From the NCBI RefSeq assembly GCF_030384665.1, contig NC_083678.1:1-64000 (forward strand): a DNA stretch of 64,000 nt. The letters are read 5' to 3'. The notes below the pieces were generated by a model, which was not told the origin of the DNA, ran no database searches, and saw only the letters and a program-made list of their open reading frames with translations. Position numbers and translations under genes: made by a program. Shown here in pieces: positions 1-20,562 of the stretch (the stretch's first letter is position 1; each line of letters opens with the position of its first letter). The stretch comes from Lodderomyces elongisporus. Taxonomy: Eukaryota > Ascomycota > Pichiomycetes > Serinales > Debaryomycetaceae.

Positions 1-376
1 TGTTTCAAGTGCATCCTTACACCGAGTTTCAAGTGCATCCTTACATCCGAGTTTCAAGTGCATCCTTACACCGAGTTTCAAGTGCATCCTTACACCGAGT
101 TTCAAGTGCATCCTTACACCGAGTTTCAAGTGCATCCTTACACCGAGTTTCAAGTGCATCCTTACACCGAGTTTCAAGTGCATCCTTACACCGAGTTTCA
201 AGTGCATCCTTACACCGAGTTTCAAGTGCATCCTTACACCGAGTTTCAAGTGCATCCTTACACCGAGTTTCAAGTGCATCCTTACACCGAGGTTCAAGTG
301 CATCCTTACACCGAGTTTCAAGTGCATCCTTACACCGAGTTTCAAGTGCATCCTTACACCGAGTTTCAAGTGCATC
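1..376 (-). repeat. Telomeric repeat array (about 15.5 units of 24 bp)
   Basis: A 24-bp unit repeats head to tail. Read on the minus strand it contains GGTGTAAGGATG followed by CACTTGAAACTC. The core GGTGTAMGGATG is shared with telomere repeats of Candida species: the C. albicans 23-mer carries GGTGT next to ACGGATG, and C. tropicalis has AAGGATG. The G-rich strand runs toward position 1, as at a left chromosome end. One unit (34-58) has an extra T, and one near 290 has GAGGTTC instead of GAGTTTC. The array stops after GTGCATC at 376. All reading frames are open because 24 is a multiple of 3, so the octapeptide ORFs here are artefacts. Identification as telomere rests on motif similarity. Confidence 0.88.
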
Positions 377-813
377 TCAATCTTATGCACAGATCTCATC
401 CCTTTCATGGTGACTCTCCGTTAATTGCTCTACTTTTCCATCAACATCTCTCATTTTACTAGACACTTACAATTGAACACCTCACAACATGCCAACTTTT
501 CTACTTTCTATTACTGTAAGGAATCCATGACTAAACTTACTATATTTTAATTTTCTTGTTAATTGTTATGAATGTCAGCACATGATTCATCTGCATTTGG
601 TTCAATTTCCAGTCAAATCAGTTCACCAAAATTTAAAAGTGAGTGTTTTGTCAACTTTTTCTTTTTTCCTTGAACAATTTTGACTTGTCTTTAAAGCTCA
701 TCACTCATAATTATTTTTCAATCAGTAACATCACCTCCTAGACTATATCAAACTACAATTTTATCTGCTCAATGGATTCTGTATTGGCTCTTCATTAGCT
801 CTACCCTACTTAA

Positions 814-821
814 TCACGTGA
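814..821. promoter_or_regulatory. TCACGTGA palindrome (Cbf1-type E-box)
   Basis: Perfect 8-bp palindrome matching the Cbf1/bHLH consensus, 438 bp inside the terminal telomere array. No gene is evident for it to control. Confidence 0.4.
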
Positions 822-1500
822 AGAGCAGAAACAATGTCAAGCACTGGTGCTACCAACTTTTCTCTCGTCTCCCTCATTAAGTTGTTCCTGCTTGCCCTGG
901 TTATGTATATAACAAAGTTCATATTTAATGGCCAACGCCTCTACCTTCCATAGACATCTTTTAAAAATAGCTTGCAAGTGTAATACACTGACTATTTTTA
1001 CACCTCGTTATTACATAGTATCTGTACAGATACCACTCGTTTCATTTATGATATTCGATTTAGACGAAACAATCGCTAACCACTCCTACAGTAAGTACAA
1101 TCACTTTGCCTTTTGAATACATTACTCTAGAGTAATTTTGTACACCATTAGAGACTAGGACACTTCATACTTTTACAATTAACCCCACTCCATCTCTTTA
1201 TTTTAACTTCCATGGTCAGAACCTGCTACGAAATATGGCTATGTGATTCCGGTTGCTCGTCTCCATCATCATCACCATCTCCCCTCATCGTCAGGCGTGG
1301 GTCCGCCAAAACCACTTCATTCTTTCCCTATTCACAAAACTTCAATGCTCTTGTTTTATCGTTCTCCGCTCTAAACTTCCTTCTTTTTTTGTCTATTTCT
1401 CCACAATTGTTCTCAATCTCAACGAGCATCAAAATTGTTAAAGAGCAAAGAAAGAAACAGAAACGGACCAAACTTCTTCTCGCGCAATAATCTTGTATGC

Positions 1501-1512
1501 TGACTCACGTGA
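1501..1512. promoter_or_regulatory. Composite TGACTCA / TCACGTGA site
   Basis: A Gcn4-type TGACTCA (1501-1507) overlaps by three bases a perfect TCACGTGA (1505-1512), giving TGACTCACGTGA. Both are exact consensus matches. The stretch to the right carries no convincing gene, so the target is unknown; the site may be chance or the relic of a promoter. Confidence 0.35.
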
Positions 1513-2267
1513 TGCAGTAAAGAAACTCAACCATAATTGGATTTCAATTCTAATACCACCCCAACACGAAACACCGATTTTTCCATGATATACAGACAAG
1601 TTATCCTTGTTCTATGAGCACCAAAGAATGTAACTCTACCTTTGAATTTGCTCGATCATTTTTTTTTTTGCTTTCCCAATGTGGTAGAAAAAAATGTTTT
1701 AATGTATACATTAATACATGTACTTTGTGAAGAGTGTGAAGAATCGCAATTTTTTCCATGACACAAGTACCTAAAACACTGGCATCCTTATAGTCGCTTT
1801 TTTCATAATAAACAAACTACTTTTATAAAATGCAATATCTAATGGGATCTGTTCTCTTTCTAATTGTTGTTTTTGTTTTTGTATTTCTCTGTGACGGTAT
1901 ATTGAGAATTGCATTGATCATTTCTTTCTCTGATCACATTCCTTTTTTTTGGCGCATTTTAATACAAAAATATACGGAAAACAAATTAAGCTTTGATATC
2001 GAATTCGTGGAAAATTATTGAATCATTAGACTACAAAACTTTCAAATTCTGAATCATACAAGCAGTCTTCACATCATTTATGCATAGTTTGGCTTTATAC
2101 TTCTTACTTAATTTTTACTTATACCCACAATTTCTCATTCAGATAACTGCTTCAAAAAAAAATACAACAAACTCATTTCATAATTAAGCAGTCCTCGGTC
2201 CTATAGTTGTACTCATTCGCTATTTACTCTAAACATTACTCAATAATACATATTCATACATAAATAA

Positions 2268-2346
2268 ACACACACAAACACACATACACACATACACACA
2301 TACACACATACACATATACACAATTATAATTATAATACACACACAC
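2268..2346. repeat. CA-rich microsatellite (ACACAT-like)
   Basis: Imperfect runs of ACACACAT/ACACAC with a short TATAAT-rich interruption, just downstream of the SAC7-like stop codon. Confidence 0.8.
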
Positions 2347-2378
2347 TAACTCATAGGTTTAGTGTTTCGTGATTGCTA

Positions 2379-4549
2379 TCACGTCTTTACATTAGTTGCT
2401 ACAATCACAGGTTTTCCAATAAGTTCCATCGGACTAGTCTTGGGACTGCTCATGGTACTAGGTGGCCGAATTTCATGAAAATACGATTCTTCAGCATCTG
2501 ACCCTACTCCATCTGAAACTTCGTACTCTACATCAGATTCATCAGGAATGCACTCTGTGGCATTGTGTTTATACCCCATCACGATATCCTCGTGTTGTGG
2601 TGTAGAACTTAGACTTTTAGAGTGCAGCCCTTGGAACCGAGGAGTTAATTGTTGCTGTTGTTGTTGCTGCTCTTGCATAACCTGACTAGATGAGGATGCT
2701 GATGCTGCTTCCACTACTGACAGTTGACCTTTCTGTGCTTCCCGCGTGGCTTCTGAGTTGGAAAGAGAGTCTTGTGGCCCAATATCATCTGCAGAGGCAT
2801 TCGCACTTGCACTCGCACTTGCACTTGCACTCGCACTTGCACTTGTTGCAATTGGCGGTGGCGGCGATGGTTCCTTGTGCGATGGCAACAATTTATACGA
2901 ATACTGAATCAAAAATTCAACCACTAGTTGTGACAATGCATACTCTTCAGGATCAAGATCATGGTCTGGATGCGAGAGTATCAGTGGCTGGAAAATGGCA
3001 GAAAGGTTGCGTGCACTCATCAAGTTCTGTTTCAGATAGCTTTGTACCATAGCAAGTAAGTCCAAGATGTAGAATAAAAGTTGTTTCGATGCTATTGGGA
3101 GATTGTTTAATAATACTCGGTAGATGTCGATAGCAGTGCGCACATCATTAGTGAGTTTCTTGTAGTTTTTTGCCTTCTTCTTTTTCTGCTTATTGGAGAA
3201 ATCTTCTTGACTACTTTGGGGAATGGATAGCAGGAGGGTTGGTTGTTGAAGTGAAGCAGTAATTGTCGAAGCAGGAGCAGTTTGTGCAGTTTGTGCAGTT
3301 TGTGCAGTTTGCGGAGCTTGCGAAGTTGGAACTGCTGAAACTGCTTGAGTATCTGGTAAATTACTTGGTGTAGCTCTCGCGTTGCTCAGGCTTTCTGCAT
3401 TCACAGACAGAGCATGATTATCGTTATGACGTCCCATGTTGGCTTCAGTCAACATCTGTGACGAGTCTCCTTCACTTTTCTTTCGAAGACTCCTCGTTGG
3501 ATTCTCTGCCTTGTACTTCATATAGCTTATAATTCTAGGTCGTTCTTTCAAAACAACTCTAAACTCCTCATAAACATCAAGCGGAATCAATGGTTCTGGT
3601 AATGCATTCAAGTACCTTCGCAAGATGATGCTGCGTCATGAACAGTATACCCATCCCAGATCAACTTCTTACCATAATCAGGAGGTGTATTGAATATAAC
3701 TTGCAACTCCTTCAATCGTTTTGAAGAGCCACCAACACGAAATATTCCTTCAACTGTCAATCCATTCTTTTTCAAGTATACTCCGCACTTGGCAACCACA
3801 ATGGGTATTTCACCATACTGCAAACCACTCGTCTGGTCATCTGATGATAACACCGAGATCTTGGCTGCTGCCTCGGAAAGCGCTTGTTGTAATGGTACAC
3901 CAAAATACTTTGAGTTTTCGTCAACTAGCGAATTGCTCTGCAAAAAGGAGTCACGACGATTTCGTATACTATTCTCGGAGTTGGATCGTACTCTAGACAC
4001 ATTGTTTGTTGATCTCAGTTTGTGGTTCAATATAGGTCGCAAGAAATCGTGCGTTGATGATGATGCAGTCGGCGAAGTGCCCAAATAATTCGAAGTTGAA
4101 AAGCTCGACTGCGCATTATTGTGCAGCAGTATCGACTGTCGCTGGTGGAAAGGCAGTGGGATATAGTTTGATGGAGACGGGGAGATTGCTCCCGGCTCCA
4201 AGTTCCCACTGATACTCGATGACATTGGGATGCTGTTGCTGTTAATGTTGCTATTGTTGTTTGTGTTGGATGGAATATTCAACGGACTTCGCTGTGGTTG
4301 AAGACGTGGCATCTGTTGCTGCTGTTGTTGCTGTTGTTGTTGCTGCTGAAGTTGCTGCAGTGATGAAGACGGAACTATTGATGGAAATGCTCCTGCATTT
4401 ATCAGTTTCGTGGGTGAAAACTTTGAACTGGCATTGTCTGAGTCGCTAATCTCATTAACTGAGTCATTGGATAAAAGATGTGATCGTTTCAAACTCTTGG
4501 CCCATCCAAAGATGGATGAGCTCCTATTGGGAGATGAGGAGTGGCTCAT
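2379..4549 (-). CDS. SAC7: SAC7/BAG7-type Rho GTPase-activating protein, reading frame broken by one frameshift
   Basis: The product would stimulate GTP hydrolysis by Rho1-type GTPases in the cell-wall integrity and actin pathways. Two minus-strand frames make up the gene. The first (4549-3608, 313 aa) has a Ser/Gln/Asn-rich N-terminus, then the start of a RhoGAP domain with [12 protein letters not shown] and the arginine-finger motif [13 protein letters not shown]. The second (from about 3623 to 2379) resumes with [14 protein letters not shown] and the rest of the GAP fold ([14 protein letters not shown]), then a Ser-rich tail. Between them GCAGCATCATCTTGCG is one base short of coding AAS-x-LRR, so a 1-nt deletion lies near 3623-3626. 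Restored length would be about 723 aa. A low-complexity insert of roughly 110 residues (about 3500-3180) splits the GAP domain. Family assignment to Sac7/Bag7 is from remembered motif similarity. The shift may be real decay or a sequence error. Confidence 0.8.
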
Positions 4550-5565
4550 CTTGGTTGCTTAGTCGTTGAATTGATGGGTGAATAAGTTTTCGTGGAGGTC
4601 TGAACGTGCGAAGGTGTGGGTAAATGAAATAGGAGTAGAGACTGTGACTCCTATCAATCAATAGATTTTAGCAGTTGCTGATAAATAAAGATGGAGAAGC
4701 TTAGTTTATGGATATCTTGTTGCTGTGCTTGTGTTATCAAATAGTCCTTGTCAAAAGGAATTTGACAGAAACTTGAGATATATTTCAAACTAGTTGGTTT
4801 GCTACTTTAGTGATGAATCTACAGCAAAAAGTTGGTATATTCTTATGGTGTAGAAATTAAATATTTTTGGTTTTGTTTACATGTGTGGTTTTCTCCTTCT
4901 CAGGCTGTGACTCTCGCTTTATTTTTTATTTGTATTTTTAGTTTATTTATTTATTTTTTATTCATTTATTTTTTATTTATTTTTTATTTATTTTTATGTT
5001 TCTCTTTTTGTCACACACTCACTTTCTTTTTTTCTTTTGTCCTGTTTTGTACAAAATATGTTCAAATTTGTGTAATCCACGTCTTCAACAGTATGTACTA
5101 GAACGTGAAGAAAGGCTACTCAAACTCTCTCCTCATCCTGAACCAATACACTCTAGTCAACTCAATGCGTAGTTTTCTCCAGTAGCTCCAATAGCTTTGG
5201 TGAGGACTTAAGCGCCAGTGAGAATTTTAGAGTAACATTCATCTTTTTAATTTTTTATTATATTCATAATAGGAAGATTCATAACTCAGGCAAAGCAAGA
5301 AGAGCAAGATACAATTGAATACTACCAACTATTAAGCAAATGATATAAAACATTTTCCACCTATGTCCTTCCTAAAGTAACTTACAAGCTGCTTCCTCTG
5401 CAGGTCAATCTAACCCCGTCGCCGCTGCAACTGCTACTACTACTACTACTACCACAACCACTATTAAATGCTTTATTTATTTGACCTTGTTTGCAAACTC
5501 TGAGCCAGTTTCTATTTATACTTCGACATTATAATCTTGTATTGACACTTTTAGACAACTTCTAG

Positions 5566-5631
5566 TATACATACATGTATATATAAATTAATATATAAAT
5601 CAATATATATATATATATACATATATATAAT
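5566..5631. repeat. AT-rich dinucleotide tract
   Basis: Imperfect (TA)n including an uninterrupted TATATATATATATA run. Confidence 0.7.
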
Positions 5632-6153
5632 TCGATGTCAATATACTACTTAGCCTGACGAATGCTATTGTCGTGTCCTAGAACACATTACACACTTCAA
5701 TAGTGATTGACGATGCCGTCTATTGTCAACTATTATCTGTTGTCATTTCCGCAATTTACATGCACTGTCTCAATTTGTCTCAATTTATTTCAAAGTAGGC
5801 AACGATATAAACAATGACACAAAAACTAAATATAGGTCTTTGCGGACCAAAAAAAAAATAATAATATTTGAGGTCTAGAACTGCCCCGCAGACCTCAAGT
5901 GAGACTACACATCACGACGAAAATTAATTCTACCAGGGGGCACGTACTTTGGAAAACTCAAAAAAAAAAAATGGAGAAAAATATAAATAAAAATAAAAAT
6001 TAAAAAAGGCGAGAGGAAAAAAAAAACACACACGAATCTAAGTGGTGTAAAGTAGAACTACAACAACCACAACCACAACCATTAATTCATTCTCACTACA
6101 AATGGATCTAGATTTTTTTCAATTTTCGACACGACACTCGTAGTTTTGCCAGG

Positions 6154-6161
6154 TCACGTGA
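6154..6161. promoter_or_regulatory. TCACGTGA palindrome (Cbf1-type E-box)
   Basis: Perfect 8-bp palindrome 1.6 kb upstream of the SAC7-like start. Too distant to assign a target. Confidence 0.3.
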
Positions 6162-6616
6162 ATAAACAGTCGTACAAACGTCAATTCAGTATACACCAAT
6201 CCTAATATTATCTTTTATTTAAAAAAAGTTTATATCTTTCTTCTTTGTTTCTTCTATTTTAAATGTCACCACACCTTCTTTTCCACAATTTCGAAAGACC
6301 CCCTCTAATTGAATAATCTCTTCTACAAATATCCCATTTAGTTTACTTTAGTTCAGTTTTTTTTTTGAAAAAAATTACTATTTATTGTTTTGAAATCTAA
6401 TTCTCTACTTGAAAAATTATTTATACAATTTTTGAACCGAAAAATGAAATAACAAAAAGTGGCCGTGAAATGTAATAGACACACACCACTTGAAGAAGGG
6501 TATAAAAGAGAGGGAAAAAAAGAGACCAATGATACTTTCTTCAATCAATCACACTGAAGAATTCAGTAGACGTTGAGAAAGAACAGAAAAAAAAAGGGGG
6601 CAAGGGTTCAAACTCA

Positions 6617-9600
6617 TCAGATCAAGAATCCAGCAAACACAGCTATTGTGGATGCAAGCATTGCAAAGATGAAGTGCCAATTTGTCTTGAAGCACCATTA
6701 ACAGCAGCAGCAACTGTTTGTGCTGCGCTTCCTTCAGAAGTTCCAGAAGCAACAGCTACATTAGTTTCAGATCCTGCAGTGGCTCCAGCCTGCTCTCCAC
6801 CAGTAGTAGTTGAAAGAGTTTTACCTCCAGCAGCAACTGTTGGTGCATTACCTTGCTGAGCAGCTTGTCCAGCACTTTCAGAACCTTGCTCAGCACCTTC
6901 GGTACCTTGTCCAGCACTTTCAGAACCTTGTTCAGCACCTTCGGTATCTTGTTGAGCACCTTCGGAACCTTGTTCAGCACCTTCTGTACCTTGTCCAGCA
7001 CCTTCTTGAGATGCTTCACTAGTTGAGCCTTGACCTTGTTTACCAGTAGATTCACTAGTTCCTACATTTGCACCAGTTTCTTGTGCAGCGGCACCACCAT
7101 TGACGCCGCCAGTGGCTGCAGTCTTGTGTGCTTGAACAGTGACATTCTCAGTGACGGTGGTTGTAACATCCACAGTTACACCGACTTCAGCAGCTGATGA
7201 TTTGGCTGCTGACTCAACACTGGCAGCATGCGCAGCCTCTTCACTGGCTTGGGAAGCTTGTGCAACAGCACTTTGAGCATGAGCAACTGCCTCAGACGAA
7301 TGTTGAGCCTTGGCTGCACTCATTTGTGCTTCAGCAGCAGATTGTTGAGCAGCAGCAGCAGAGGTTTGAACTGCAACAACAGACTCATGTGTAGAAATGA
7401 TGGCCTTCAAGGTACTTTGGGCACCCGCTTCAACCAGACTAAGTGAACTTATAGCACTTTCACAGCTTTGCACAACCTCTGTTTTGGTAACCTTAGCTGC
7501 ACTTTCTTTCACGCTCTCAAGTGACAGGATAGCCGATTCACAAGACACAATGACTGTGATGATTTCCTGCTCATGTACCGTCAATGTAGACTGCACAGCA
7601 GCAGCGCTTGTTTGTTCGCAGCTTGCTTCAGACTGCACTGAGCTGGCTGACAGTTGGGCACAGTACTCAGTAACTTCAGTGACAATTATGGTGGTGGTGT
7701 AGACAGAGGTTGATCCGGATTTGTCGGTAGTAGTGACTTCACTCAACACTGTGGATGTAGCGGGCAATGAAGTCTCATCACCCAGAGTAGTTTCAGTAGC
7801 AAAAGAGCCAGAGCCAGAGCCAGAAGCTGTAACATCTCCTGTAGCAGACTGCTCTTCACTTTCCTCACCAGTAGTTGTGGCTCCAGATGATCCTGTTTCA
7901 CTTGCATCTCCACCTTCACTTGTTTGAGTGTCACCGTCCGATGTTGGACCAGCAGATGTGCTGCTTGTTTCCGGGGTAGAGTCGACTTCTGAGTTGAGTT
8001 CAACACATCCTTCGCGGTTCTTCACAGATACAACGTAACCAACCTCAGCAGGACATGCATAAAAGGTAACAACTTGATCATCACGTTTCGTGAATGCTGG
8101 AGAGTCAGATGGTAGCGTCAATTGGTTATCAGTCATACCCCATCCGGTAGTAGCCTCTTCCGCATCATCAACAACAACCAAATTACCAATTTCATCGACC
8201 TTGACGTAGCCACCAGCCAACAAGTGGAGCAATCCGTCATCTAATTCAAACAATGCTTGAACTCCATCAAAGAGCTTAATATGTGTACCATTGGATTCAA
8301 ATACAGCAGTTTCATTTAAGAAGCTAACAGATACTGAGAAGCCATTAGCAGGACTCAGTTGGCTCCAAGTCATCAGTAGTAGCAGATCCAGAAGCAGATT
8401 CAGAAGCGGATCCAGGAGCAGATCCAGAAGCGGATTCAGAAGCGGATCCAGTAGCGGACTCGGACGAGCTAACATCAGAGCCACCAGTAGTAGCGGATCC
8501 AGTTGCGGATTCAGAAGCAGATTCGGTTGAGCTGACATCAGTGCCACTAGTAAGAGTAGGCTCAGAAGTTTCAGTAACATCACCAGTAAGGCCAGCTGAG
8601 GCAGCCGAGTCCAATAACGAGCTAACACTTGCTGGAGGCATCCAGTATGGATCCCAAACACCAGCACTAGAACAGACTGAAGTAGCCAAAGATCTAGCAT
8701 CGAGCACGTCCTCTCCGCGACAATTGTCAGCAATACATTCACCAACCAATGCTTGGAACTGAGGCATGATACAGAGACAGCCGGTATCCCAGTATGGACA
8801 TGGGGTGATACCGGTGTTTTGGTACATACATGGCTGAGCACATGCAGGTAATTGGTCATAGATTCTGTCAGCAAAACCATTGATTGAGGCGGTCTTTGCC
8901 ACAGATGGGTATTGAGTATATTGGTTACCAGTGTCATCAGAAGTTGGAGCAGATGTGATTAATGAATCGGACGAGGAAGCGTTATTGGTATTGGATTGTT
9001 GACCTGAAGTGATGGAGCTTGAAGTTGATTCTTCAGATGCTTGAGAAGATGACTCTTCAGCAGTAGCAGAAGAGGAGGAAGAAGGAGAATCACTAGAAGA
9101 GGCAACATCGGTGCTTGACGAGGTGTCATCAGTAGTAGTGGCAACGGCAGTAGCAGCATACTCTAATGAAGAACTGATACTAGCAGGAGGCATCCAGTAT
9201 GGATCCCAAACACCAGCACTAGAACAGACTGAAGTAGCCAAAGATCTAGCATCGAGCACGTCCTCACCGCGACAGTTGTCAGCAATACATTGGCCAACCA
9301 ATGCTTGGAACTGAGGCATGATACAGAGACAACCAGTATCCCAGTATGGACACGGGGTGATACCGGTGTTTTGGTACATACATGATTTAGCACATTCTGG
9401 TAATTGGTCATAGATTCTGTCAGCAAAACCATTGATTGAAGCAGTCTTTGCCACGGATGGGTATTGAGTGTATGGATTATCTGCTCCAGTGGTGGTTGGA
9501 GCCGATGTGACCAATGTGTTTGAAGCAGTCTCAGTAGGAACGGTTTCAGTGTTTTCATCGGTTGTGGTGGTTGTAATGGCGTTGCTGTCCCAAGATGCAG

Positions 9601-10443
9601 TAGCAGCATATTCCAAAGCAGAGGTTACACTGTCATCTGGCATCCAATATGGTTCCCACATTTGGGCACTGACACAGATTGAGGTGGCCAATGATCTGGC
9701 ATCCAAGACATCTTCACCATGACAGTTGTCGGCAATACACATTCCGACTGGGTTCTGGAATTGAGGCATCATACAGAGACACTGGGGTATCGTAGTAAGC
9801 ACAAGGGGATACACGAACGTCCTGTTTTACGCAGGGTTTAGCACACTCTGGTAAACGGTCGTAGATCTTGTCTGCAAAACCATTGATTGAAGCTGTCTTT
9901 GGATTGTCACATACCATCCGGAGGAGGTTGAGGAGGTGGTTGGTGCTGTTGTGATCAATGAGTCAGAGGAGGAAGCGGTATTGGAGGTTGATTGTGTTTC
10001 CGAAGAGTCTGAACTTGATTCAAGAGCAGCAGATGATTGGGTGTTGGAACTTGACTCTTCAATTGTCGAATCAGTAGACGATGCTTCTTCGACAGCAGTA
10101 GATGAAGTTTCTTCAGCTTCGGTTGAGGAGGCTTCTTCTTTGGTCGAAGAAGAAGAAGAAGAAGAAGAAGAAGAAGAAGAAGGAGAATCACTAGAAGAGG
10201 CAACATCGGTGCTTGACGAGGTGTCATCAGTGGTAGTGGCAACGGCAGTAGCAGCATACTCTAATGAAGAACTGATACTAGCAGGAGGCATCCAGTATGG
10301 ATCCCAAACACCAGCACTAGAACAAACTGAAGTAGCCAAAGATCTAGCATCGAGCACGTCCTCACCGCGACAGTTGTCAGCAATACATTGGCCAACCAAT
10401 GCTTGGAACTGAGGCATGATACAGAGACAACCAGTGTCCCAGT
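6617..10443 (-). pseudogene. CSA1: CSA1-like multi-CFEM GPI cell-wall protein, 5'-truncated and frameshifted
   Basis: CFEM proteins of this family bind heme at the Candida cell surface for iron uptake. Four CFEM units are visible in transcription order: unit 1 (10443 to about 10280, only 5 of 8 Cys left), unit 2 (about 9905-9640), unit 3 (about 9457-9185) and unit 4 (about 8899-8632). Units 2-4 keep eight Cys positions, and the heme-type Asp lies in WDTGC or YDTP. Ser/Thr-rich linkers separate them. After unit 4 come a Ser/Gly tract, a beta-type domain ending FYACPAEVGYVV...GCVELN (8357 to about 8000), a Ser/Ala/Gln-rich stalk with GQGTEGAEQGSE repeats, and a hydrophobic GPI-type tail ending AVFAGFLI with TGA at 6619-6617. 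The frame changes four times: near 9910, near 9788 (CCCC run), near 8360 and near 6655. The signal peptide and upstream part are missing because telomere repeat begins at 10441; the frame continues open through it to 10807. The stated gene symbol is by family only. Confidence 0.75.
10147..10182. repeat. GAA/TTC trinucleotide run (poly-Ser linker)
   Basis: About a dozen GAA triplets on the plus strand, read on the minus strand as TCT codons coding a poly-Ser stretch in the linker after CFEM unit 1. Confidence 0.85.
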
Positions 10444-10807
10444 GCATCCTTACACCGTGTTTCAAGTGCATCCTTACACCGAGTTTCAAGTGCATCCTTA
10501 CACCGAGTTTCAAGTGCATCCTTACACCGAGTTTCAAGTGCATCCTTACACCGAGTTTCAAGTGCATCCTTACACCGAGTTTCAAGTGCATCCTTACACC
10601 GAGTTTCAAGTGCATCCTTACACCGAGTTTCAAGTGCATCCTTACACCGAGTTTCAAGTGCATCCTTACACCGAGTTTCAAGTGCATCCTTACACCGAGT
10701 TTCAAGTGCATCCTTACACCGAGTTTCAAGTGCATCCTTACACCGAGTTTCAAGTGCATCCTTACACCGAGTTTCAAGTGCATCCTTACACCGAGTTTCA
10801 AGTGCAT
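10441..10807 (-). repeat. Interstitial telomeric repeat array (15 units of 24 bp)
   Basis: The same 24-bp unit and orientation as at 1-376, with the G-rich strand pointing left. The first unit (10441-10460) has CCGTGTTTC instead of CCGAGTTTC, and the same TGTTTCAAG variant stands at position 1 of the window. The left border cuts CFEM unit 1 after CCCAGT; AGT (10441-10443) is shared by the CFEM sequence and the telomere unit. The right border is GTGCAT at 10807, followed by unrelated AT-rich DNA. On the minus strand the array encodes MHLKLGVR repeats in frame with the CFEM remnant. Confidence 0.88.
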
Positions 10808-10926
10808 TACTCATAAACTAATTCCTAATATTCGACTTTCGGTAAATGACGAATTCTCACATACGATCAAAATCTTATCTTTCACCAAAAGCACACAACC
10901 TATTATACTCAATTGTCAAAATTGGA

Positions 10927-10934
10927 TCACGTGA
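10927..10934. promoter_or_regulatory. TCACGTGA palindrome (Cbf1-type E-box)
   Basis: Perfect palindrome 120 bp beyond the end of the interstitial telomere array. Another lies 438 bp beyond the terminal array. Confidence 0.35.
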
Positions 10935-11420
10935 ATATACAACTTTTCTTTTATCTTCAATATTTAGTCTCAATAACATACAGTAATTCTTCCAACCAAA
11001 TTAAAATGCGACATTCAAAACTAGTCTAATTTGGTCTTTTACGTCCAAAGCTAGTTGGTGTTGCTCCATCTTTTGATTAGTCTGTTATATCACTTCCAAG
11101 TCAATAATAAGTCAAAGAACACCATTTATCATAACTCGCTTTAAGTAATATCACTCTGAAATGTTTTATCCGCTTATAATCTATTAAGATTTTTTTTTTT
11201 AATATGACTTGAGAATGCAAAAGTGAAAACATTCGTTGAGACCACATTACACAATTATTTTGTTTGATTTTGCAGCAAAAAACAATAACTACTGTACTGC
11301 AGTCATTACTAACCGCTTTACACTTCTAATTATGCATTTGACATGACCCTCGTGCTCCTTCGTAAATACATTATATACTATATACATCAACCTTTAAGCT
11401 ACTAAGTCGTTTCAAAGTGA

Positions 11421-11585
11421 TTAATCTTCAAGTACTGTTCTACCAATTTGCATGTTTGCATGTTCTGGTGCAATATTGACAGGTCCAACGCCAAGCCGTA
11501 CTTTTATTTTCTCACTGCCGCGCTGAACGATCAAAAAAATACCTCTTTCAGGATTCATAACCAACTGCGCGCTTGCCATAGACAT
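11421..11585 (-). CDS. Possible 54-aa small protein, unknown
   Basis: An ATG-started frame of 54 codons, with an in-frame TAA directly before the ATG. It reads MSMASAQLVMNPERGIFLIV and continues with a mixed, non-repetitive composition (RGSEKIKVRLGVGPVNIAP), ending VLED-stop. Its local base composition, with GCGCGC and CGGCAG, is richer in GC than the surrounding DNA, which is why I list it. I recognise no family, and an open frame of this size is expected by chance in 64 kb. It could also be a fragment of a decayed gene. Confidence 0.2.
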   Translation of the reverse strand: MSMASAQLVMNPERGIFLIVQRGSEKIKVRLGVGPVNIAPEHANMQIGRTVLED

Positions 11586-12500
11586 TTATCTTGAGAATCA
11601 AAACAACCAAGACAAAAAAATATCAGATCCATTTCCAACAAGTGGACTTTGATTATTAAGGATAGCTTTGGCTTCTATAGTGTCGGAGTTATGCAAGCCA
11701 ATACTATTCTATATAATCGAACAGATAAAGGATTACCAAAACTTCGATTTGCCTTGGTACAAACAATTCGTTTTATCTTCACTATCTATGCAAACTTTCA
11801 CGTGCAACACCACTGAGAAACACAACTCTTGAACAGTAGCAAATACAATTAATGAAGCTTCCTTTAACAAAAGTGATCACTGCACGTACTTTACTTGCGA
11901 TAGACAATTACAAAAACTACAATTTCAACAATATTTGCAAAAAAGTAACGAAAAAACTACCTGCTAATGCACTTGTAAATTGTATGCTTTTGTTTTCTCT
12001 TCTGCGCTCAAAACACACTATGTAGCAGGAGCAATCATTTGTTAAGCAAGAGTATTCAAACCGCGATGTTATAAGCATTTGCAACCCTCCTGCTCTCGTG
12101 ACATATAGTAATTGTACATGACCATTCTGCCCTCGACACACACTCCATTTATAAACAATCGATAAAAGTGCAAGTTTCTCCACCAATATATAGTTGCAAT
12201 CTGATGCTACTTGCCTTGATTTCTTTTATCTTGATCCGACGAACATTTACTGATTTATGAGTTCCATAAACACTCCCTTTTGTCACTCGAAAACAATTAT
12301 AGCGCTTTACAAAGATTCTAAACCACATCTAGTTACACTCGCAAGCTAAAGCAATGTTGGGGTTAGGCTCTAACAGCACGGTTCCAAAATCTAAAAAAAA
12401 GAGTAAAAAGAATAAAGAGAATAAAAAGAATAAAAAGAAAAAAGAACTATATTTATCATCATGCCAATTTGCTATGTATCAAAACTATAAACTTATAAAT

Positions 12501-13841
12501 CTATTTCGCCACCAATACACTCGCAGACTTCTTCCTCTTCGCCAAAGCATATTTCGCTGATTTCATCACACCCGCAGTGAAAACACCCTTTACAGCTTGC
12601 ACGAGCGAACTGTACGCAATGGTCTTTGCAATCAATTTCCGAAGATTATTGGCCAACTCGCGGTCCTTGACAATATCCTTGATCGACGATTCAGGATACC
12701 TGCTATACAATTGGGTTCTAAACTTCAATGGCAAACACGATATTAGCTTGATCTTGGAACTTGGATTGAGGTTGGTCTTGAACGTTCTGTTTGTCTCGTC
12801 ATTGTCTGTAATTACCAAGTAATTTCGGTGGATGAAATACTGCAATATCGGATCGTATAGTTTCTTAAAGTGGTGAAACTGCTTGGAAACAATGTTCTTT
12901 ACCTTGTGCGGGTTCTCTCCGCCAATGTACATTCTAAAATCACCCAAGTACGACAAGTTGGTGATCTGCTCGTACAATTGCCTCTCGGTGAACGAGTTGG
13001 ACTCAATGAGGAAAATGGCAATAGTCATGGCATTCTTCAAATTGTACTGGTTAAGAAACTTCAACATGATATCGTCGTCCTTGACGAAATTGACCGGTTT
13101 TTGCAACCTTCCTGCAAAATATAACGAAGACCATTCACTCAAGTCCATCATTGCTGACTTCCGCTCAATGATACCGTACTTTGTGAGATGATTGTTGATA
13201 GATGCATACGGGTTAAAGTAGATGCCCTTGCCCTGGATATAGTTGATCCACATAAGCGACTTGGACGAGTAGTGGTTTGCATTTTGTAACAAGTTCTCCT
13301 TATGGAATGATGCTGAGTTTTTAACAACAAAGATAAAGTCCATTTGCTTTGGATCTGCATCTGACTTGGAGGTCCCCATTGCTGCTGTGGTTGAGGCTGA
13401 GGTTGAGGCGGTGTCAATGGCAGTGGAGGTGTCAGTGGCGGTGTCAATGGAGGTATCAGTGTCAGTGGCTGTACCTGCATCAACGGGGTATCCATCTTGC
13501 GGAAGCACTCCCGATCCATACCCAATCGCGGTTTCCATTGGTGCATGGAAACTTTTCACAATCCCTTCTAGTTTCTCCTGATCCTCATACTCTACAAGGT
13601 TCTGGTTGTCTGCACAAAAATCTATGGGGATTACCAACTTGTCGAACCCATCTGCACCCTCGGCAATGATTGGCTGATAGTACTTATCTGAATAAGGTGT
13701 CGTTCGAATATACGCTGCAGTGGCATTGTGTCTACTATGGATAAGTATGCTTCTGATGCAAGTTGTGTGGATGCGGTAGTGCAATAGTCGTATCATCCTG
13801 GTTACGTGTTTCATATCGGCTCCCCTCACCTTGGACCACAA
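12501..13841 (-). CDS. TAM41: Mitochondrial phosphatidate cytidylyltransferase (CDP-diacylglycerol synthase) Tam41
   Basis: Makes CDP-diacylglycerol from phosphatidic acid and CTP on the matrix side of the mitochondrial inner membrane, the first step toward cardiolipin. The 446-aa product starts with a basic, hydroxylated presequence-like region (MKHVTRMIRLLHYRIHTTC from Met10). Family motifs follow: AIGYGSGVLPQDGY (nucleotidyltransferase glycine loop), then QMDFIFVVKNSASFHKENL, and the helical C-terminal half with YIQGKGIYFNPY and MIGG-like YIGGENPHKVKN. A Thr/Ala/Asp-rich insert (about residues 120-160) sits just after the glycine loop and is not typical of the core. Either Met1 or Met10 could start translation. 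It is divergent from THR4, with a 427-bp shared upstream region. Confidence 0.93.
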   Translation of the reverse strand: MWSKVRGADMKHVTRMIRLLHYRIHTTCIRSILIHSRHNATAAYIRTTPYSDKYYQPIIAEGADGFDKLVIPIDFCADNQNLVEYEDQEKLEGIVKSFHAPMETAIGYGSGVLPQDGYPVDAGTATDTDTSIDTATDTSTAIDTASTSASTTAAMGTSKSDADPKQMDFIFVVKNSASFHKENLLQNANHYSSKSLMWINYIQGKGIYFNPYASINNHLTKYGIIERKSAMMDLSEWSSLYFAGRLQKPVNFVKDDDIMLKFLNQYNLKNAMTIAIFLIESNSFTERQLYEQITNLSYLGDFRMYIGGENPHKVKNIVSKQFHHFKKLYDPILQYFIHRNYLVITDNDETNRTFKTNLNPSSKIKLISCLPLKFRTQLYSRYPESSIKDIVKDRELANNLRKLIAKTIAYSSLVQAVKGVFTAGVMKSAKYALAKRKKSASVLVAK

Positions 13842-14268
13842 ACAATCTTTTGAGAATCTGTGTACAATATATATTACACACTCATTGTATACATATATCT
13901 ATGTATATTTTTTTTTTGTCTTGGGTAAACACGCGAAAGCCAAAAAAAAAAAAAAATTAAAAAAAAAAAATATATGTGCTCACACTAACATAAAGTAACA
14001 GAGGAGAAATGAGAGGATAAAAAAAATATAATAAAAAATATAAAATAAAAAAAGATTAAAAAAAAATTAAAAAAAAGAATTATTCAGATTTCTGAAAAAT
14101 TCAAACAAAGCCCGAACAAAATGTCTGAGTCAGACTATCGGTTTACTTTTCTTTTTTTTTTATTTTTTTTAATTTTTTTTTTAATTTTTCGTAGTGAATT
14201 TTTGAGGACTCGAAATAAAAGGTGATTAATTTCAACAAACCAGACCAAAGACTACAAAAACCAAAGAA
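13842..14268. promoter_or_regulatory. Divergent TAM41-THR4 promoter region
   Basis: A 427-bp spacer dominated by poly(dA:dT) tracts, typical of nucleosome-depleted yeast promoters. It contains a Gcn4 site at 14126-14132. No gene is seen in it. Confidence 0.7.
14126..14132. promoter_or_regulatory. Gcn4-type TGAGTCA site upstream of THR4
   Basis: Exact TGAGTCA, 137-143 bp upstream of the THR4 ATG. Gcn4 activates amino-acid biosynthetic genes, THR4 among them in S. cerevisiae, so position and target agree. Confidence 0.7.
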
Positions 14269-15783
14269 ATGTCGTCACAAGTTTATAGATCCACCAGGTC
14301 CAGCCAGCCAGAGGAACTCTCCTTTGAGGATGTGGTCATGACCGGGTTGGCCCCCGATGGAGGTCTTTATTTGCCCTCTTCAATCCCACAATTACCATCC
14401 AACTTCACTGAAACTTGGAAAGACTTGTCATTCAACGAGTTGGCCTTCGAGATTTTAAGATTGTACATCAACGAACTGGAGATCCCAAGCGACGACTTAA
14501 AGGACTTGATCAAGAGATCGTATGCTACATTCAGATCTGATGAAGTTACACCAATTAAGAAATTGGACGACAATTTACACATTTTGGAGTTATTCCATGG
14601 TCCAACATATGCCTTTAAGGATGTTGCACTTCAATTTGTGGGAAACTTGTTTGAGTATTTCTTGGTGAGATGCAACAACAAGAAGAAGGAAGGTGAGCCA
14701 AGAGACATCATTACCGTTGTTGGTGCCACCTCTGGAGATACTGGTTCTGCTGCCATTTACGGATTGAGAGGTAAGAAGGATGTTTCTGTGTTCATCTTGT
14801 ACCCCACTGGAAGAATTAGTCCTATTCAAGAAGAGCAAATGACTACAGTTGAAGACGCCAATGTACACACCCTTTCCGTTAATGGTACTTTTGACGATTG
14901 CCAAGATATTGTCAAATCAATCTTTGGTGACAAGGAGTTCAACGACAAATACCATGTTGGTGCAGTCAACTCCATCAACTGGGCAAGAATCTTGGCACAA
15001 CAGACTTACTACTTCTACTCCTACTTCCAATTGCAAAAACAACTCGGTGGAAACTCAAAAGTCAGATTCGTTGTTCCATCAGGTAACTTTGGAGACATTT
15101 TGGCAGGTTACTATGCATACAAGATGGGATTGCCAGTGGACAAATTGATTATTGCCACAAATGAAAACGATATCCTTGACAGATTTATGAAATCTGGAGA
15201 ATATGCAAAGCAGCAAGAAGTCGGTGTCAAGGTCACCTACTCGCCAGCCATGGACATTTTGATCTCGTCCAATTTTGAAAGATTGTTGTGGTACTTGATC
15301 AGAGACAATGTTGCCAACGGCAATGACGAGAAAGCCGGCGAGATCTTGAGCGGATGGATGAAAGAGTTGAAGGAAAACGGTAAATTTACAGCACCTCAAG
15401 AAGTTGTTGAAAAAGCCAGAGTTGTTTTCGACTCCGATAGAGTCAGCAACGAGGACACCATCAAGACCATCAAGGAAGTGTATTCAAACAACCCAGAAAA
15501 GTACATCATTGACCCACACACAGCAATTGGAGTCAAGACATCCTACAGATTCATCGAAAAAGAACCTAAAGCAGAATACATCTCGCTCTCGACTGCCCAT
15601 CCAGCCAAGTTCTCCGAGGTTGTCAACAAGGCACTCGAGTCGTTTGACGGTTACTCTTTTGAGAAGGATGTACTTCCAGCAGAGCTTAAGGCTTTGAGCA
15701 CCAAGGAAAAGAGAATCAAGCTCATTGACGAGCCAAGCATCGAAAAGGTGAAACAGGCCATCAAAGATGAGTTGAAGTTTTAA
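14269..15783 (+). CDS. THR4: Threonine synthase
   Basis: Converts O-phosphohomoserine to threonine with pyridoxal phosphate, the last step of threonine synthesis. The 504-aa protein begins YRSTRS...LSFEDVVMTGLAPDGGLYLP, the N-terminal signature of the long fungal and bacterial form. The PLP-binding lysine is Lys117 in HGPTYAFKDVALQF. Further cofactor motifs are VVGATSGDTGSAAIYGL and VPSGNFGDILAGY. Length matches yeast Thr4 (about 514 aa), and the frame is clean end to end. The ATG is preceded by an A-rich leader (CCAAAGAAATG). It is likely under Gcn4 general amino-acid control through the upstream TGAGTCA. Confidence 0.97.
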   Translation: MSSQVYRSTRSSQPEELSFEDVVMTGLAPDGGLYLPSSIPQLPSNFTETWKDLSFNELAFEILRLYINELEIPSDDLKDLIKRSYATFRSDEVTPIKKLDDNLHILELFHGPTYAFKDVALQFVGNLFEYFLVRCNNKKKEGEPRDIITVVGATSGDTGSAAIYGLRGKKDVSVFILYPTGRISPIQEEQMTTVEDANVHTLSVNGTFDDCQDIVKSIFGDKEFNDKYHVGAVNSINWARILAQQTYYFYSYFQLQKQLGGNSKVRFVVPSGNFGDILAGYYAYKMGLPVDKLIIATNENDILDRFMKSGEYAKQQEVGVKVTYSPAMDILISSNFERLLWYLIRDNVANGNDEKAGEILSGWMKELKENGKFTAPQEVVEKARVVFDSDRVSNEDTIKTIKEVYSNNPEKYIIDPHTAIGVKTSYRFIEKEPKAEYISLSTAHPAKFSEVVNKALESFDGYSFEKDVLPAELKALSTKEKRIKLIDEPSIEKVKQAIKDELKF

Positions 15784-15840
15784 AAATGTTTCTACTTTAT
15801 TTTATTTTATTTTATTTTCATTTATAATTTAATTTTCTAG

Positions 15841-17298
15841 TTAATTTTCTAATTCTTTCTTTTTTTGTTGTTGGTCATTTTTCTTATTTATAGTGACATT
15901 CCCGTCAATAACATCCACCTTGTATCCAACTTCTTGCAATACATCGTCATCGATCACTTTCTTTGCCTCCAATTCTGCCACTATTTTCTGGTTCGATGGA
16001 TTCTTGTCCAAAAGATACTTTGTACACAATATTGCTTGTTCTTTGATGAATGGGTTATTGTTGTCAATCACACAATTCGATAGCACAAGTGTTAGGCCGC
16101 CTAGTTCTCTTATTTGCTCTTGAATAGGGAAGGACTGGTAGCACATGTATGAAAGGATGGTGATGATGTATGATTTTGCATGTGGGTACCCAACCACCTC
16201 CTCTATTTTGGACTTTATTGTAAGTTGTTTGACATTTTCATGAATGAGCTTAAACACTTTTATCAATACTGGTAAGAAAGATTCCTGCATGTTGGTAAGG
16301 AACTGTACTGTAGCATTAAACTTTGATAAATCGGCCAAAATACTCAATGCTGGAAGAATCTGATATTCAATTTCGGAATCGTTGAGGTTGTCCTTGGTGA
16401 GCGAGCCACCAACAATACAAAATATATAGACCACCCAGTCCAAGAGAGCTACTAGTTGATAGTTGTTCCAGTCATCGCTAGTCTGTAAAATTGTCGATGA
16501 TAATTCCAACCACTCTCTCCTTACTTCCGTGCTAGTCTGCACTGTATTGACCCACTTTCCAAAACTTTCATGAGTAATGACATCATATAGTAAATGAAGC
16601 AACATTTTGGAATCGTGTGTGATATCCTCAAAGTTTATACTTTCATATAACTTGTATAGTTGTGCCAATACATGATTATCCTCAATCTTCAACAACTGGA
16701 GTAAATTTTCATTTGTCACATCGGGATCCTCGGTGAAGAACTGGCGGAACAAGAAATGGATTACTGGTGATCTGGGAAACACTTTGGTAGTCTTGAATAG
16801 CTTGTTGAGCTCATCGAGGTCTTCCGTATCTGACATCTCTTCAGGCTCTTTAAGTTCCTTGAGTTTTTGCAAAAGTTGGTGTTTTCGTGGGAAATTAGCC
16901 ATAGTTTGCCAGTACACTTCAATGACCTTTTTATTCCAATCTTCATCTTCTTCTTTCTCTTCGTTTTCAACTTCTTCTCCTGTTGGGTTGTCCAGTACAA
17001 TAAAGTTTTGGAAGCTCTTCACAACTTTTGAATAAACGGTGCCATCGCTTAGCAGAACTGCTTTATTTCGCACAATCAATAGAAGCCCTCTGTATAGTCG
17101 TAATTTATATACATTCTTTTTTGGTGGTGCATATTCAAGAATCGATGAGATGTGATTTAGACTCACTGGTGTGTTTTGATCCTCTGCTGTCTCTTTCACA
17201 GCCAAGCTCAATTGCGCTATACAACTATCAAAGCCCTCCTGATTCGTAGACTTTAACCATTGCAACGTTTGCTCTATCCTTAGTTCCACATTAGACAT
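15841..17298 (-). CDS. CTR86: Ataxin-10 family protein (Ctr86-like)
   Basis: A 485-aa helical protein of the ataxin-10/Ctr86 family, whose molecular role in yeast is poorly defined. The diagnostic part is the C-terminal Atx10 domain (about residues 365-465): a helix ending in LSYMCYQSFPIQEQIRELGG, then LVLSNCVIDNNNPFIKEQAI and CTKYLLDKNPSNQKIV, matching the family pattern RELGG-x-n-NNPFI-x-EWA. The rest is armadillo-like with an acidic stretch (EEVENEEKEEDEDW). It converges with THR4, with 57 bp between the stop codons. The frame is intact. The symbol follows the S. cerevisiae orthologue by domain similarity. Confidence 0.82.
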   Translation of the reverse strand: MSNVELRIEQTLQWLKSTNQEGFDSCIAQLSLAVKETAEDQNTPVSLNHISSILEYAPPKKNVYKLRLYRGLLLIVRNKAVLLSDGTVYSKVVKSFQNFIVLDNPTGEEVENEEKEEDEDWNKKVIEVYWQTMANFPRKHQLLQKLKELKEPEEMSDTEDLDELNKLFKTTKVFPRSPVIHFLFRQFFTEDPDVTNENLLQLLKIEDNHVLAQLYKLYESINFEDITHDSKMLLHLLYDVITHESFGKWVNTVQTSTEVRREWLELSSTILQTSDDWNNYQLVALLDWVVYIFCIVGGSLTKDNLNDSEIEYQILPALSILADLSKFNATVQFLTNMQESFLPVLIKVFKLIHENVKQLTIKSKIEEVVGYPHAKSYIITILSYMCYQSFPIQEQIRELGGLTLVLSNCVIDNNNPFIKEQAILCTKYLLDKNPSNQKIVAELEAKKVIDDDVLQEVGYKVDVIDGNVTINKKNDQQQKKKELEN

Positions 17299-17586
17299 AT
17301 TTGAGGCAAAAATAGAAAGATGATAAGAAAAGGGAAAGGGGAAAAAAAAACAAAGGAGTGCGAAGAGGAAGAAAAGGAAATTGGGTGCAAACTAAAGAAT
17401 CTATACTCTACTCTTATATTTTTATTAGTAATTTAATCTCTATTCCTACTTTACTCTTCTATACTTTTTTTTGTCTATTTTATTCCTTATTTTTTTTTTT
17501 TTGCTTTTTTTTACTTTATTCTATTTTATTTTATTTTATTTTGCAGAGCCAAAAAAATAAAGCAGAAAGGATAATCTGAGAAAAAT

Positions 17587-19269
17587 CTATTTTGGTTTAT
17601 TCAAGTCACAAGCGTGCGGATTCATCACGCAATACTTTGGGACCAAGGGCGCTGCAGGATGGCCTGCTTTTATCAAAAACTCTCTGAAAAGTAAAATACG
17701 AGTCGTCATTTCCTCTAACCGGAAAACACCCTCTGCATTCTTATTGCCACTCCATAAGGATTCTGCAAGTGCCGACGTTCTTGGCCAAATCTTACCCGTC
17801 AAAACAGTAAAGTCAACTTGCTCAGAAAAAAGGACAGCTTCGGCACCCAATACCAACTTGGATTCTTCTCTAGTCAAATTCTGTGCAATATCAAACGTGT
17901 AGATTCGTTGCCAAGTCTTGTAGGGAGCACACCAACTTCCGCCTTGGCCATTATTAAATTCTTCATTTTCGGGAGAGTCTACATACCGGAAATCATCTGT
18001 GACCCAGCCACCGTAGCCACAATCGAGATACAAGTGACTGGACAGCGACACCACCACCTCGTACCCTTGCAGAGTCAAATTCTTGACACCGCTCTGTTCA
18101 TGCCACACTTGGAGTGTAACATTACTAGGCAAACTATGAGCAGCTCCATCTGACGACAAGAGCACATCGTCCCACATCATCAACTTACGTCCAGGAATAG
18201 CGTTGAACAAAGGCAAGGCACGATCAATGTAGTGCTGGACCACATCGCCAAGTGTAGTTGCATTATTAAACCACTCACGGGGAAAACAATTTTTTTGAAG
18301 CTCATCGTTCCCAACATGGAAATATTTGTCGCCAAATACATTGCTGAGTTCATTGTACACGTCGGAAATGTACTTATAAGTATCCAGATCCATAATATTT
18401 AATTGTCCTGGAGGAGGCTCTACCGCCACATCACCCCACCAATCATTTCCACACAAGACTATATTGGGGTCAATCTGCCTCCAGCCTGCTCTTGCATGGC
18501 CCGGCATATCGATTTCCGGTATAACGCGTACTCCACGAGATCTAGCAAAATCCTGCACCAATTTGAGTTCATCTTTAGTATAAATCTCGCCCAGTGAATA
18601 TGCATCACGAATCATCTCAGGGTGCGACTCCAAAAGCAACGGCCAGCTTTGACTATCAACCAAATGCCAATGGAGTACATTCATTTTGCACAACGACATA
18701 ATCTCTATTTGTTCCAAGACATTTGCCACTGGCAAGAAATTCCTGGCGGAATCAATCATGAGCCCCCTATGTTGATATTGTGGGTAATCCTCGATATGTA
18801 CTGACGACTCACATATCCAGTGACCATTGTTGCCTTTGTACACCAAAAGTTGCGCCAAAGTCGTTAATGCATGCAACGCACCCCAGATTGTGCCACTCGA
18901 TATTCCAATCTGGGTTTCGTTTACCTGCAATTCAAAGGACTCATCGACTCCCACTTGTAAATCTTGGTCGAGATCATCCACTTGTATATCAATCACATGT
19001 GACTCCAAGGTGCTGGAAACAACAATAATTGGATCCGTTGAATTAGTATAGTCATAAGGCGACCATTTGGCACGTCTCACTTGTGCAATTGTTCTGCTGA
19101 AAGCGTCATTAAGGATTGAACTATTGGTATTTAGTTGCAATTGATTAATATCGATTGTTATGGACGTATTGCCTAACCAATTGATACTTTGAGGACGCGG
19201 TAATGGATCAACAAGCACTGACGCAACCACGGCAATGGTGTAAAAGTAGACAAGTATGATGTTCCACAT
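17587..19269 (-). CDS. HEX1: Beta-N-acetylhexosaminidase, GH20, secreted
   Basis: Hydrolyses terminal GlcNAc from chitobiose and glycans outside the cell, feeding GlcNAc use in Candida. The 560-aa product has an N-terminal hydrophobic signal peptide (MWNIILVYFYTIAVVASVLV). A GH20 accessory domain follows, then the catalytic barrel with YQHRGLMIDSARNFLP, MNVLHWHLVDSQSWP, RVIPEIDMPGHARAGW and the catalytic Asp-Glu pair in FHVGNDELQKNCF (about residue 320). Downstream aromatic motifs LWSG and TSALAESLW close the sugar site. Multiple N-glycosylation sequons are present. Length is typical for the family. Confidence 0.96.
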   Translation of the reverse strand: MWNIILVYFYTIAVVASVLVDPLPRPQSINWLGNTSITIDINQLQLNTNSSILNDAFSRTIAQVRRAKWSPYDYTNSTDPIIVVSSTLESHVIDIQVDDLDQDLQVGVDESFELQVNETQIGISSGTIWGALHALTTLAQLLVYKGNNGHWICESSVHIEDYPQYQHRGLMIDSARNFLPVANVLEQIEIMSLCKMNVLHWHLVDSQSWPLLLESHPEMIRDAYSLGEIYTKDELKLVQDFARSRGVRVIPEIDMPGHARAGWRQIDPNIVLCGNDWWGDVAVEPPPGQLNIMDLDTYKYISDVYNELSNVFGDKYFHVGNDELQKNCFPREWFNNATTLGDVVQHYIDRALPLFNAIPGRKLMMWDDVLLSSDGAAHSLPSNVTLQVWHEQSGVKNLTLQGYEVVVSLSSHLYLDCGYGGWVTDDFRYVDSPENEEFNNGQGGSWCAPYKTWQRIYTFDIAQNLTREESKLVLGAEAVLFSEQVDFTVLTGKIWPRTSALAESLWSGNKNAEGVFRLEEMTTRILLFREFLIKAGHPAAPLVPKYCVMNPHACDLNKPK

Positions 19270-19614
19270 ACTAAAATTAATATCTTTTTTTGTTATTGAT
19301 TTTGCAATAGCAGATGTAGTTGCAGATGTAATTTGTCTGTTTTCTTATTATTCTTTTTTCTTTTACCGTTGTTATGCTGATGTTATTACTATACAATGGT
19401 GAATATTTACAAGCCTTTATACCTCCAGGAAATCTTTCAATAACTCGTTCAATCTCGTTCAATTTCGTAAGCTGAAGTTTGTCGTTCTTTGTTATAGTTC
19501 AGTATGGTTCTGTGACATTCATAAAAGATCATTAAAGGCTGCTGCCGATTTTAGCCGTTCGTTACCGAAATGTAACATCCATTCATTTTCCTTTCTTTTT
19601 TTTTAGTTATAAGT
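19270..19614. other. Spacer between HEX1 5' end and COQ10 3' end
   Basis: A 345-bp AT-rich spacer that should hold the HEX1 promoter. It contains a 61-codon minus frame with no features. No strong binding motif recognised. Confidence 0.5.
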
Positions 19615-20166
19615 TTAAAGTTTTGCCTCGTCAGTTTGTCTATTGTTCTTTGTATTTTCAAACGAGAGTTGCATGAGCCGTTTCTCGAATGCACCAATCA
19701 TAATACTTGAAACTTTTGGTGCAAACAAGGAGCTAAGTTGCTCGTATAGAGGGTTTTTGAACTTGTATGTCAAGGTAAAGTCTACTTTGCATTTTGGTGG
19801 TCCATTGGATTTAATATTTTTAAACGTCCATAACGTCTCGAGCGAGTGGAATAAATCCAACTCTATACTTTTGGCATAAACTTTTTCGTTCTTTGCACAC
19901 TGGAGCTCGCATTCAAATCTTTCAGTAATATCTTTCCAGCCAACTTTTAATCCTGCTCTAGACGGGAGCGAATTGGCATCGCGTGCTGTAATGAAAGAAT
20001 CCTCAACAAATGGTACAAAATGCTTATACTTATCAACCTCACTTACGATTGCATAGACTTGCTCTGGTGACCCATTTAAAACTCGTGAAATCCTGTATGA
20101 CTGAGGCTTTGCAGAGCCGAAAAATGTTCTCTGAAATGTAACCGGTGTAGCAACTCGTCGTAACAT
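19615..20166 (-). CDS. COQ10: Coenzyme Q-binding protein Coq10 (START-like, mitochondrial)
   Basis: Binds ubiquinone and is needed for its proper use in respiration, in the mitochondrial inner membrane or matrix. The frame is open from 20364 (249 aa), but I take Met67 at 20166 as the start (183 aa). From there it reads MLRRVATPVTFQRTFFG, a basic presequence directly before the SRPBCC/START fold, and it matches the family length. The domain shows YRISRVLNGSPEQVYAIVSE, VDKYKHFVPFVEDSF, LKVGWKDITERFECEL and the C-terminal helix SSLFAPKVSSIMIGAFEKRL. The longer version would add a hydrophobic leader that is not typical of Coq10. It lies between HEX1 and RPS25 on the same strand. Confidence 0.9.
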   Translation of the reverse strand: MLRRVATPVTFQRTFFGSAKPQSYRISRVLNGSPEQVYAIVSEVDKYKHFVPFVEDSFITARDANSLPSRAGLKVGWKDITERFECELQCAKNEKVYAKSIELDLFHSLETLWTFKNIKSNGPPKCKVDFTLTYKFKNPLYEQLSSLFAPKVSSIMIGAFEKRLMQLSFENTKNNRQTDEAKL

Positions 20167-20562
20167 CGGTAATTTTTTGTCAAGTAAGTTGTTATTATTA
20201 GATATTGCAATGGATAGTTGTAAAAGAACAGTCGTCCGGAGAAAAGATGGAATTGGAATGTAAAGAAAGGAAAGGAAATGAGATGGCACCGAACAGGACG
20301 CGATATACAAAATCAGCACTATATACTCAGCCCACGTAATTAAACAAAGTCTTGTTTTCTCCACGCCAGAGTTTTTTCTTCCAAAATCAAATCATTTATA
20401 TGTTTTGATCACATTAGAGAGCAAATTCTACAAGTTTTAAATATTCTAATAATTTTTTTTTTAATACATGATGTTAAAAAGGGGGGGTTGTGTGTTCGTA
20501 ATATACAGTCAACTAACAAGTTAAACAAGTTAAACAAATTAAAACAGCAACTGTTAATTAGT

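Follow-up and report, generated by a model that had tools for sequence, protein, structure and literature searches.

An internal telomere array near the left end of Lodderomyces elongisporus contig 6 and an assembly join as the most likely reason for its position

The left end of contig 6 of the Lodderomyces elongisporus genome raises the question as to why a telomere array should lie some 10 kb inside a contig that already begins with one, and whether the DNA lying outside it belongs to chromosome 6 at all. The window examined here is a stretch of 64,000 bases (contig 6 bases 1-64000, that is, the left end of the contig) in a genome of 8 contigs and 16,086,460 bases, with a largest contig of 3,597,007 bases and an N50 contig of 2,328,861 bases. 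The PacBio HiFi assembly of strain NRRL YB-4239, a diploid, has been published, and its description states that hifiasm was supplied only with reads longer than 20 kb, 25x out of 645x, the mean read being 13.3 kb (PMC10586162). An earlier note on this DNA had interpreted the inner array as the former left telomere of a chromosome beginning at 10808, to which another chromosome end was joined either by a past capture or fusion or by an assembly join. The whole structure is, judging from the contig sequences, most likely an assembly join and not a real feature of the genome.

The two arrays and the DNA to the right of the inner one are as follows.

1-376, minus strand: terminal telomere array, a copy of the contig 7 left telomere; its first base is aligned to the contig 7:116 end mark
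10441-10807, minus strand: internal telomere array of 15.3 units with the G-strand leftward, interpreted here as chromosome 6's true left telomere
10808-14000, no strand: unique DNA beside the putative true telomere, with no other long match in the genome
12501-13814, minus strand: TAM41, within this unique DNA; a search with its protein gives a 100% match

By Tandem Repeats Finder the 24-bp unit is repeated 15.3 times at 10441-10807 (99% matches) and 15.6 times at 2-376 (98% matches), and if up to 3 mismatches are allowed the window holds 29 units, 15 terminal and 14 internal, on one strand throughout, where 100 shuffles give a mean of 0.00. The array at 10441-10807 is thus an interstitial telomeric sequence in the sense of repeats that lie inside a contig beyond chance expectation. 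In both arrays the C-rich strand is on top, such that the 3′ end of the G-strand points left; the internal array of 15 units in the orientation of the terminal one was correctly described before, and the accompanying argument, that telomere addition to a broken end of the left segment would give the opposite orientation, is geometrically sound. A genome search with four tandem units lists at least 97 matches, which fall at the 16 contig ends (the repeat is present at all 16), in the internal array, and once on contig 3; among the matches listed the internal array is the only long one within a contig, the contig 3 match being of 32 bases. The internal array spans 367 bp, or 350 bp if counted from the mark at 10458 described below, compared with 351-542 bp aligned in the 16 terminal arrays, and it adjoins unique DNA directly, like the other telomere borders compared.

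The DNA outside the array corresponds to the left end of contig 7.

377-10443, no strand: copy of the contig 7 left subtelomere, reaching contig 7 base 10560; its unique DNA differs by 7 indel events and 0 substitutions
2379-4549, minus strand: frame-broken copy of a SAC7-like RhoGAP gene, with two open frames here and one of 723 codons in contig 7
6617-10443, minus strand: frame-broken copy of a gene for a CFEM-domain surface protein, truncated on its 5′ side where the array begins; the start in the window is taken from the alignment
10441-10443, no strand: junction bases AGT, common to contig 7 and the telomere unit

Positions 1-10443 of the window align to contig 7:116-10560 over 10,449 columns that include the contig 7 telomere and its border, which agrees with the proposal that the outer DNA derives from another chromosome end. 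Beyond base 10560 contig 7 continues without an array and through an intact CFEM gene (6731-10825, minus strand, one open frame of 1364 codons), whose product has three CFEM stretches in the tested 1089-residue part. The first base of contig 6 coincides with the contig 7:116 mark. The outer telomere is therefore as long as the marked telomere of contig 7 itself, which is what one would expect of a molecule that was simply a contig 7 end. When the 15 other contig ends (9-10 kb each) were compared by BLAST, contig 7 left was the only one to share the outer DNA at length, with contig 2 left giving one 86-column low-complexity match. Three broader searches are uninformative in this respect: a genome search with 377-10440 lists neither the segment itself nor contig 7 left, so that its silence carries no weight, and Lodderomyces elongisporus is absent both from the best 120 of 1428 protein matches to the RhoGAP product and from the 21 matches to the 1089-residue CFEM part, neither of which bears on the contig that carries the gene elsewhere.

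The manner in which the copy departs from its source warrants a closer examination. Six of the seven indel events in unique DNA are of one base and one is of three, and five of the single-base indels disrupt the reading frames of the RhoGAP and CFEM genes, both of which are intact in contig 7; the telomere part differs by one insertion and one substitution, these being two departures in the terminal array, neither of which is found in contig 7. Subtelomeric duplications that have diverged naturally are also present in this genome. A 91% copy of the contig 7 left RhoGAP gene lies at contig 4:10134-12278, about 10 kb from the left end of that contig, and the subtelomeres at either end of contig 2 share 85% identity across 903 columns. 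The first of these pairs shows 120 mismatches and 8 gap openings and the second 117 mismatches and 7 gap openings, or 15-17 substitutions per indel in the two natural duplications (n=2); if indels make up about 6% of events, the chance of seven indels in seven events is about 4e-9. The differences in unique DNA are thus of the kind made by sequencing error. Uncorrected errors in HiFi reads are of this appearance, and the copy looks like one uncorrected read. Since coverage by many reads would have corrected the indels, the extension is probably supported by a single molecule or by very few. A crude frameshift scan, which separates the outer stretch from other ends weakly, finds 3 candidates in 377-10440; the 15 other ends have 0-2 apiece and 5 together, while 10808-20808 has 0 and 10808-64000 has 1. 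It is the direct comparison with contig 7 that carries the argument.

A further feature bears on where chromosome 6 ends.

10458-10463, plus strand: TGTTTC end mark, containing the sole repeat departure in the internal array

Twelve of the 16 contig ends start with TGTTTCA, and within 480 bases of each end TGTTTC is otherwise found only at positions 9 and 25 of contig 4 right, 25 of contig 6 right and 116 of contig 7 left. In the internal array it arises by the change A>T at 10458, the only departure from the unit there, and lies 17 bp inside the outer border. Within the arrays the base preceding GTTTC is A, so the leading T is non-telomeric, and with 367 bases and three possible changes at each, a single random change would hit that base in that way about once in 1100. 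Apart from marks and a block at contig 1 right, the departures at the other ends are found no more than about 75 bp from the inner border. The steps of the library kit named in PMC10586162 include overhang removal, end repair and A-tailing (PMC11344823, in the part covered), and an A added to a blunted G-strand end would be read as a T on the opposite strand, which could produce the non-telomeric T. If the longest read slightly overshot the usual stop of the reads from that end, error correction would impose their T within the array. By that account most chromosome 6 molecules would end at 10458, and the mark stands in the array as if chromosome 6 normally ends there; it is an indirect hint, from the contig sequence, that reads may stop at a natural end inside the contig. 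With its normal length, its unique-DNA border and this outer-end mark, the array is well explained as the left telomere of a chromosome starting at 10808, as had been suggested, although here it is probably the present end and not a former one.

We consider it likely that the internal array is the true left telomere of chromosome 6 and that the outer 10.4 kb is a chimera of one molecule, or of very few, that the assembler kept. Chromosome 6 would end in the array at about 10458-10807, and one such molecule, or very few, would have joined its telomere to a fragment from the left end of chromosome 7, with ligation during library making as the likeliest origin. Selection of reads longer than 20 kb from a library with a 13-kb mean would enrich joined pairs of ordinary fragments, and the assembler would then have kept the fragment as a free extension: because nothing lies beyond a partner that itself ends in a telomere, no read contradicts it. 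Partners from chromosome interiors would, we argue, create branches that assemblers cut. A chimeric ligated long read at a contig end would share with this locus an abrupt join of two loci, an indel-only copy in unique DNA, an intact source and a nearby mark; the present case differs in the three bases shared at the join, and in that the chimera is deduced from the contig sequence. Of the two causes offered in the earlier note the assembly join is thus favored, by the read-error-like copy and by the mark in the array, and a past rearrangement, by break-induced replication or fusion, that now stands in the genome is not supported.

A counterpart may exist in the same data set. At the left end of contig 8 the authors of the assembly trimmed 12,416 bp of rDNA that lay beyond the telomere, and suggested that rDNA had been added to ageing telomeres (PMC10586162). 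The contig 6 join looks like a similar case that escaped removal: in both instances a telomere array is followed outward by more than 10 kb from another part of the genome, but there the partner is rDNA and was trimmed, whereas here it is a chromosome end that was retained. Unlike the contig 8 rDNA, the contig 6 structure receives no mention in the portion of that paper covered (PMC10586162).

Several observations count against a chimera. AGT at the junction suits a mechanism acting in cells slightly better than it suits blunt ligation; by a rough reckoning such a match arises by chance in about 5% of cases. Since the mark lies 17 bp inside the array and not at the junction, the molecule that was joined must have extended past the marked end. 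In its telomere part the copy carries one substitution in addition to its insertion. Random ligation, finally, would not usually be expected to involve the end of a chromosome, to which we would reply that perhaps only such partners survive assembly.

An alternative explanation, which we regard as unlikely though deserving of consideration, is that in a few cells the chromosome 6 telomere used its G-tail to invade chromosome 7 at the three-base match and copied it to the end. This could have proceeded by microhomology-mediated break-induced replication, or the telomere could have fused with a broken chromosome 7 end, one such molecule then being sequenced. The polarity of the arrays, the copying of chromosome 7 all the way to its end, and the AGT microhomology all fit an event of this type, as do the authors' own reading of the contig 8 rDNA as rDNA moving to ageing telomeres (PMC10586162) and the finding that in S. 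cerevisiae subtelomeres are rearranged as a result of telomere uncapping (PMC13022453, in the part covered). As in break-induced replication onto a chromosome end, the donor is duplicated from the join to its very end and is itself intact, but a ligated end fragment would look alike, and the contig 6 copy has neither natural divergence nor any sign of many molecules. The array is moreover of normal length, unlike a worn telomere, the outer telomere has exactly contig 7's marked length save for changes resembling read errors, and nothing demands an in-cell event over ligation. One sequenced molecule cannot distinguish copying in the cell, from within the chromosome 7 CFEM gene, from ligation. 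Extended to the genome as a whole, and with a similarly low likelihood, this reading would hold that in this wild-type yeast full-length telomeres are extended in a few cells by the copying of chromosome ends or rDNA, such that subtelomeres stack outward; the contig 6 join and the contig 8 rDNA would then be two caught molecules of a continuing process.

Somewhat less probable still is a standing duplication of the left end of chromosome 7 onto chromosome 6, fixed or heterozygous. The deposited contig contains the structure, subtelomeres have been duplicated elsewhere in this genome (the RhoGAP copy on contig 4 and the paired ends of contig 2), and in a diploid strain heterozygosity is possible in principle. 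Against this, the differences in unique DNA are indels only, which many reads would presumably have corrected, and the end mark inside the array suggests that reads stop there. An old, decaying subtelomere duplication is ruled out by the 0 substitutions in unique DNA. The same-polarity arrangement also recalls the Y' elements of S. cerevisiae, which have interstitial TG tracts, the inner and outer tracts being of the same polarity. While the polarity of both tracts is shared with contig 6, the outer block here is not shared by many ends and its join cuts a gene, and a Y'-like repeat family is ruled out since, among the 15 other ends compared, contig 7 left alone shares the block at length.

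Least probable by far is that telomerase added the repeats while mending an internal break between flanks that were always neighbors: interstitial arrays of that origin are known in mammals and other vertebrates (PMC7215372, PMC8537989, in the parts covered), but the left flank runs on in contig 7 without an array, within an intact gene, and bears contig 7's own telomere at its far end. Such insertion is ruled out by the contig 7 continuation unless contig 7 is itself wrong.

If the preferred reading, a chimeric molecule joined beyond a true telomere, is correct, about 10.4 kb at the left end of chromosome 6 in the assembly would be false sequence, the interstitial telomere would be false as such, and the broken duplicates of two genes could be mistaken for pseudogenes or for the expansion of a gene family. 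The general lesson would be that a contig with two telomeres can conceal a chimera if the partner, too, comes from the end of a chromosome, with three telltale signs: a telomere array inside the contig, an intact counterpart at another locus, and indel-only differences. Should a rare capture be the true explanation, the locus would instead provide direct sequence evidence of chromosome-end capture in unperturbed cells.

The join also gives rise to a 326-codon open frame on the minus strand (9827-10807) that fuses telomere repeats to a partial CFEM domain. The telomere unit amounts to 8 codons, is free of stops in one frame and contributes one ATG per unit; this frame should not be taken for a gene and could mislead automatic gene callers.

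The terminal arrays show some further variation. Variant units occur near the inner border at both ends of contig 3 and at contig 7 right, in pairs whose members carry the same change, and the contig 1 right array contains two copies of an extra 10-base piece, 34 bases apart and about 150-215 from the end, perhaps through a slip of telomerase. The 32-base match on contig 3 (1310241-1310272) consists of one unit plus 8 bases and lies between open frames; it is probably the template of a telomerase RNA gene, for which it is a candidate on sequence grounds. Rfam places no telomerase RNA near this site, and a telomerase RNA has been reported for Lodderomyces elongisporus (PMC5033589, in the part covered). 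Finally, 12 of the 16 contig ends begin in the same register of the 24-bp unit, with the C-strand starting at GTTTCA after the non-telomeric T, and this common register may reflect a sequence-defined 5′ end of the C-strand.
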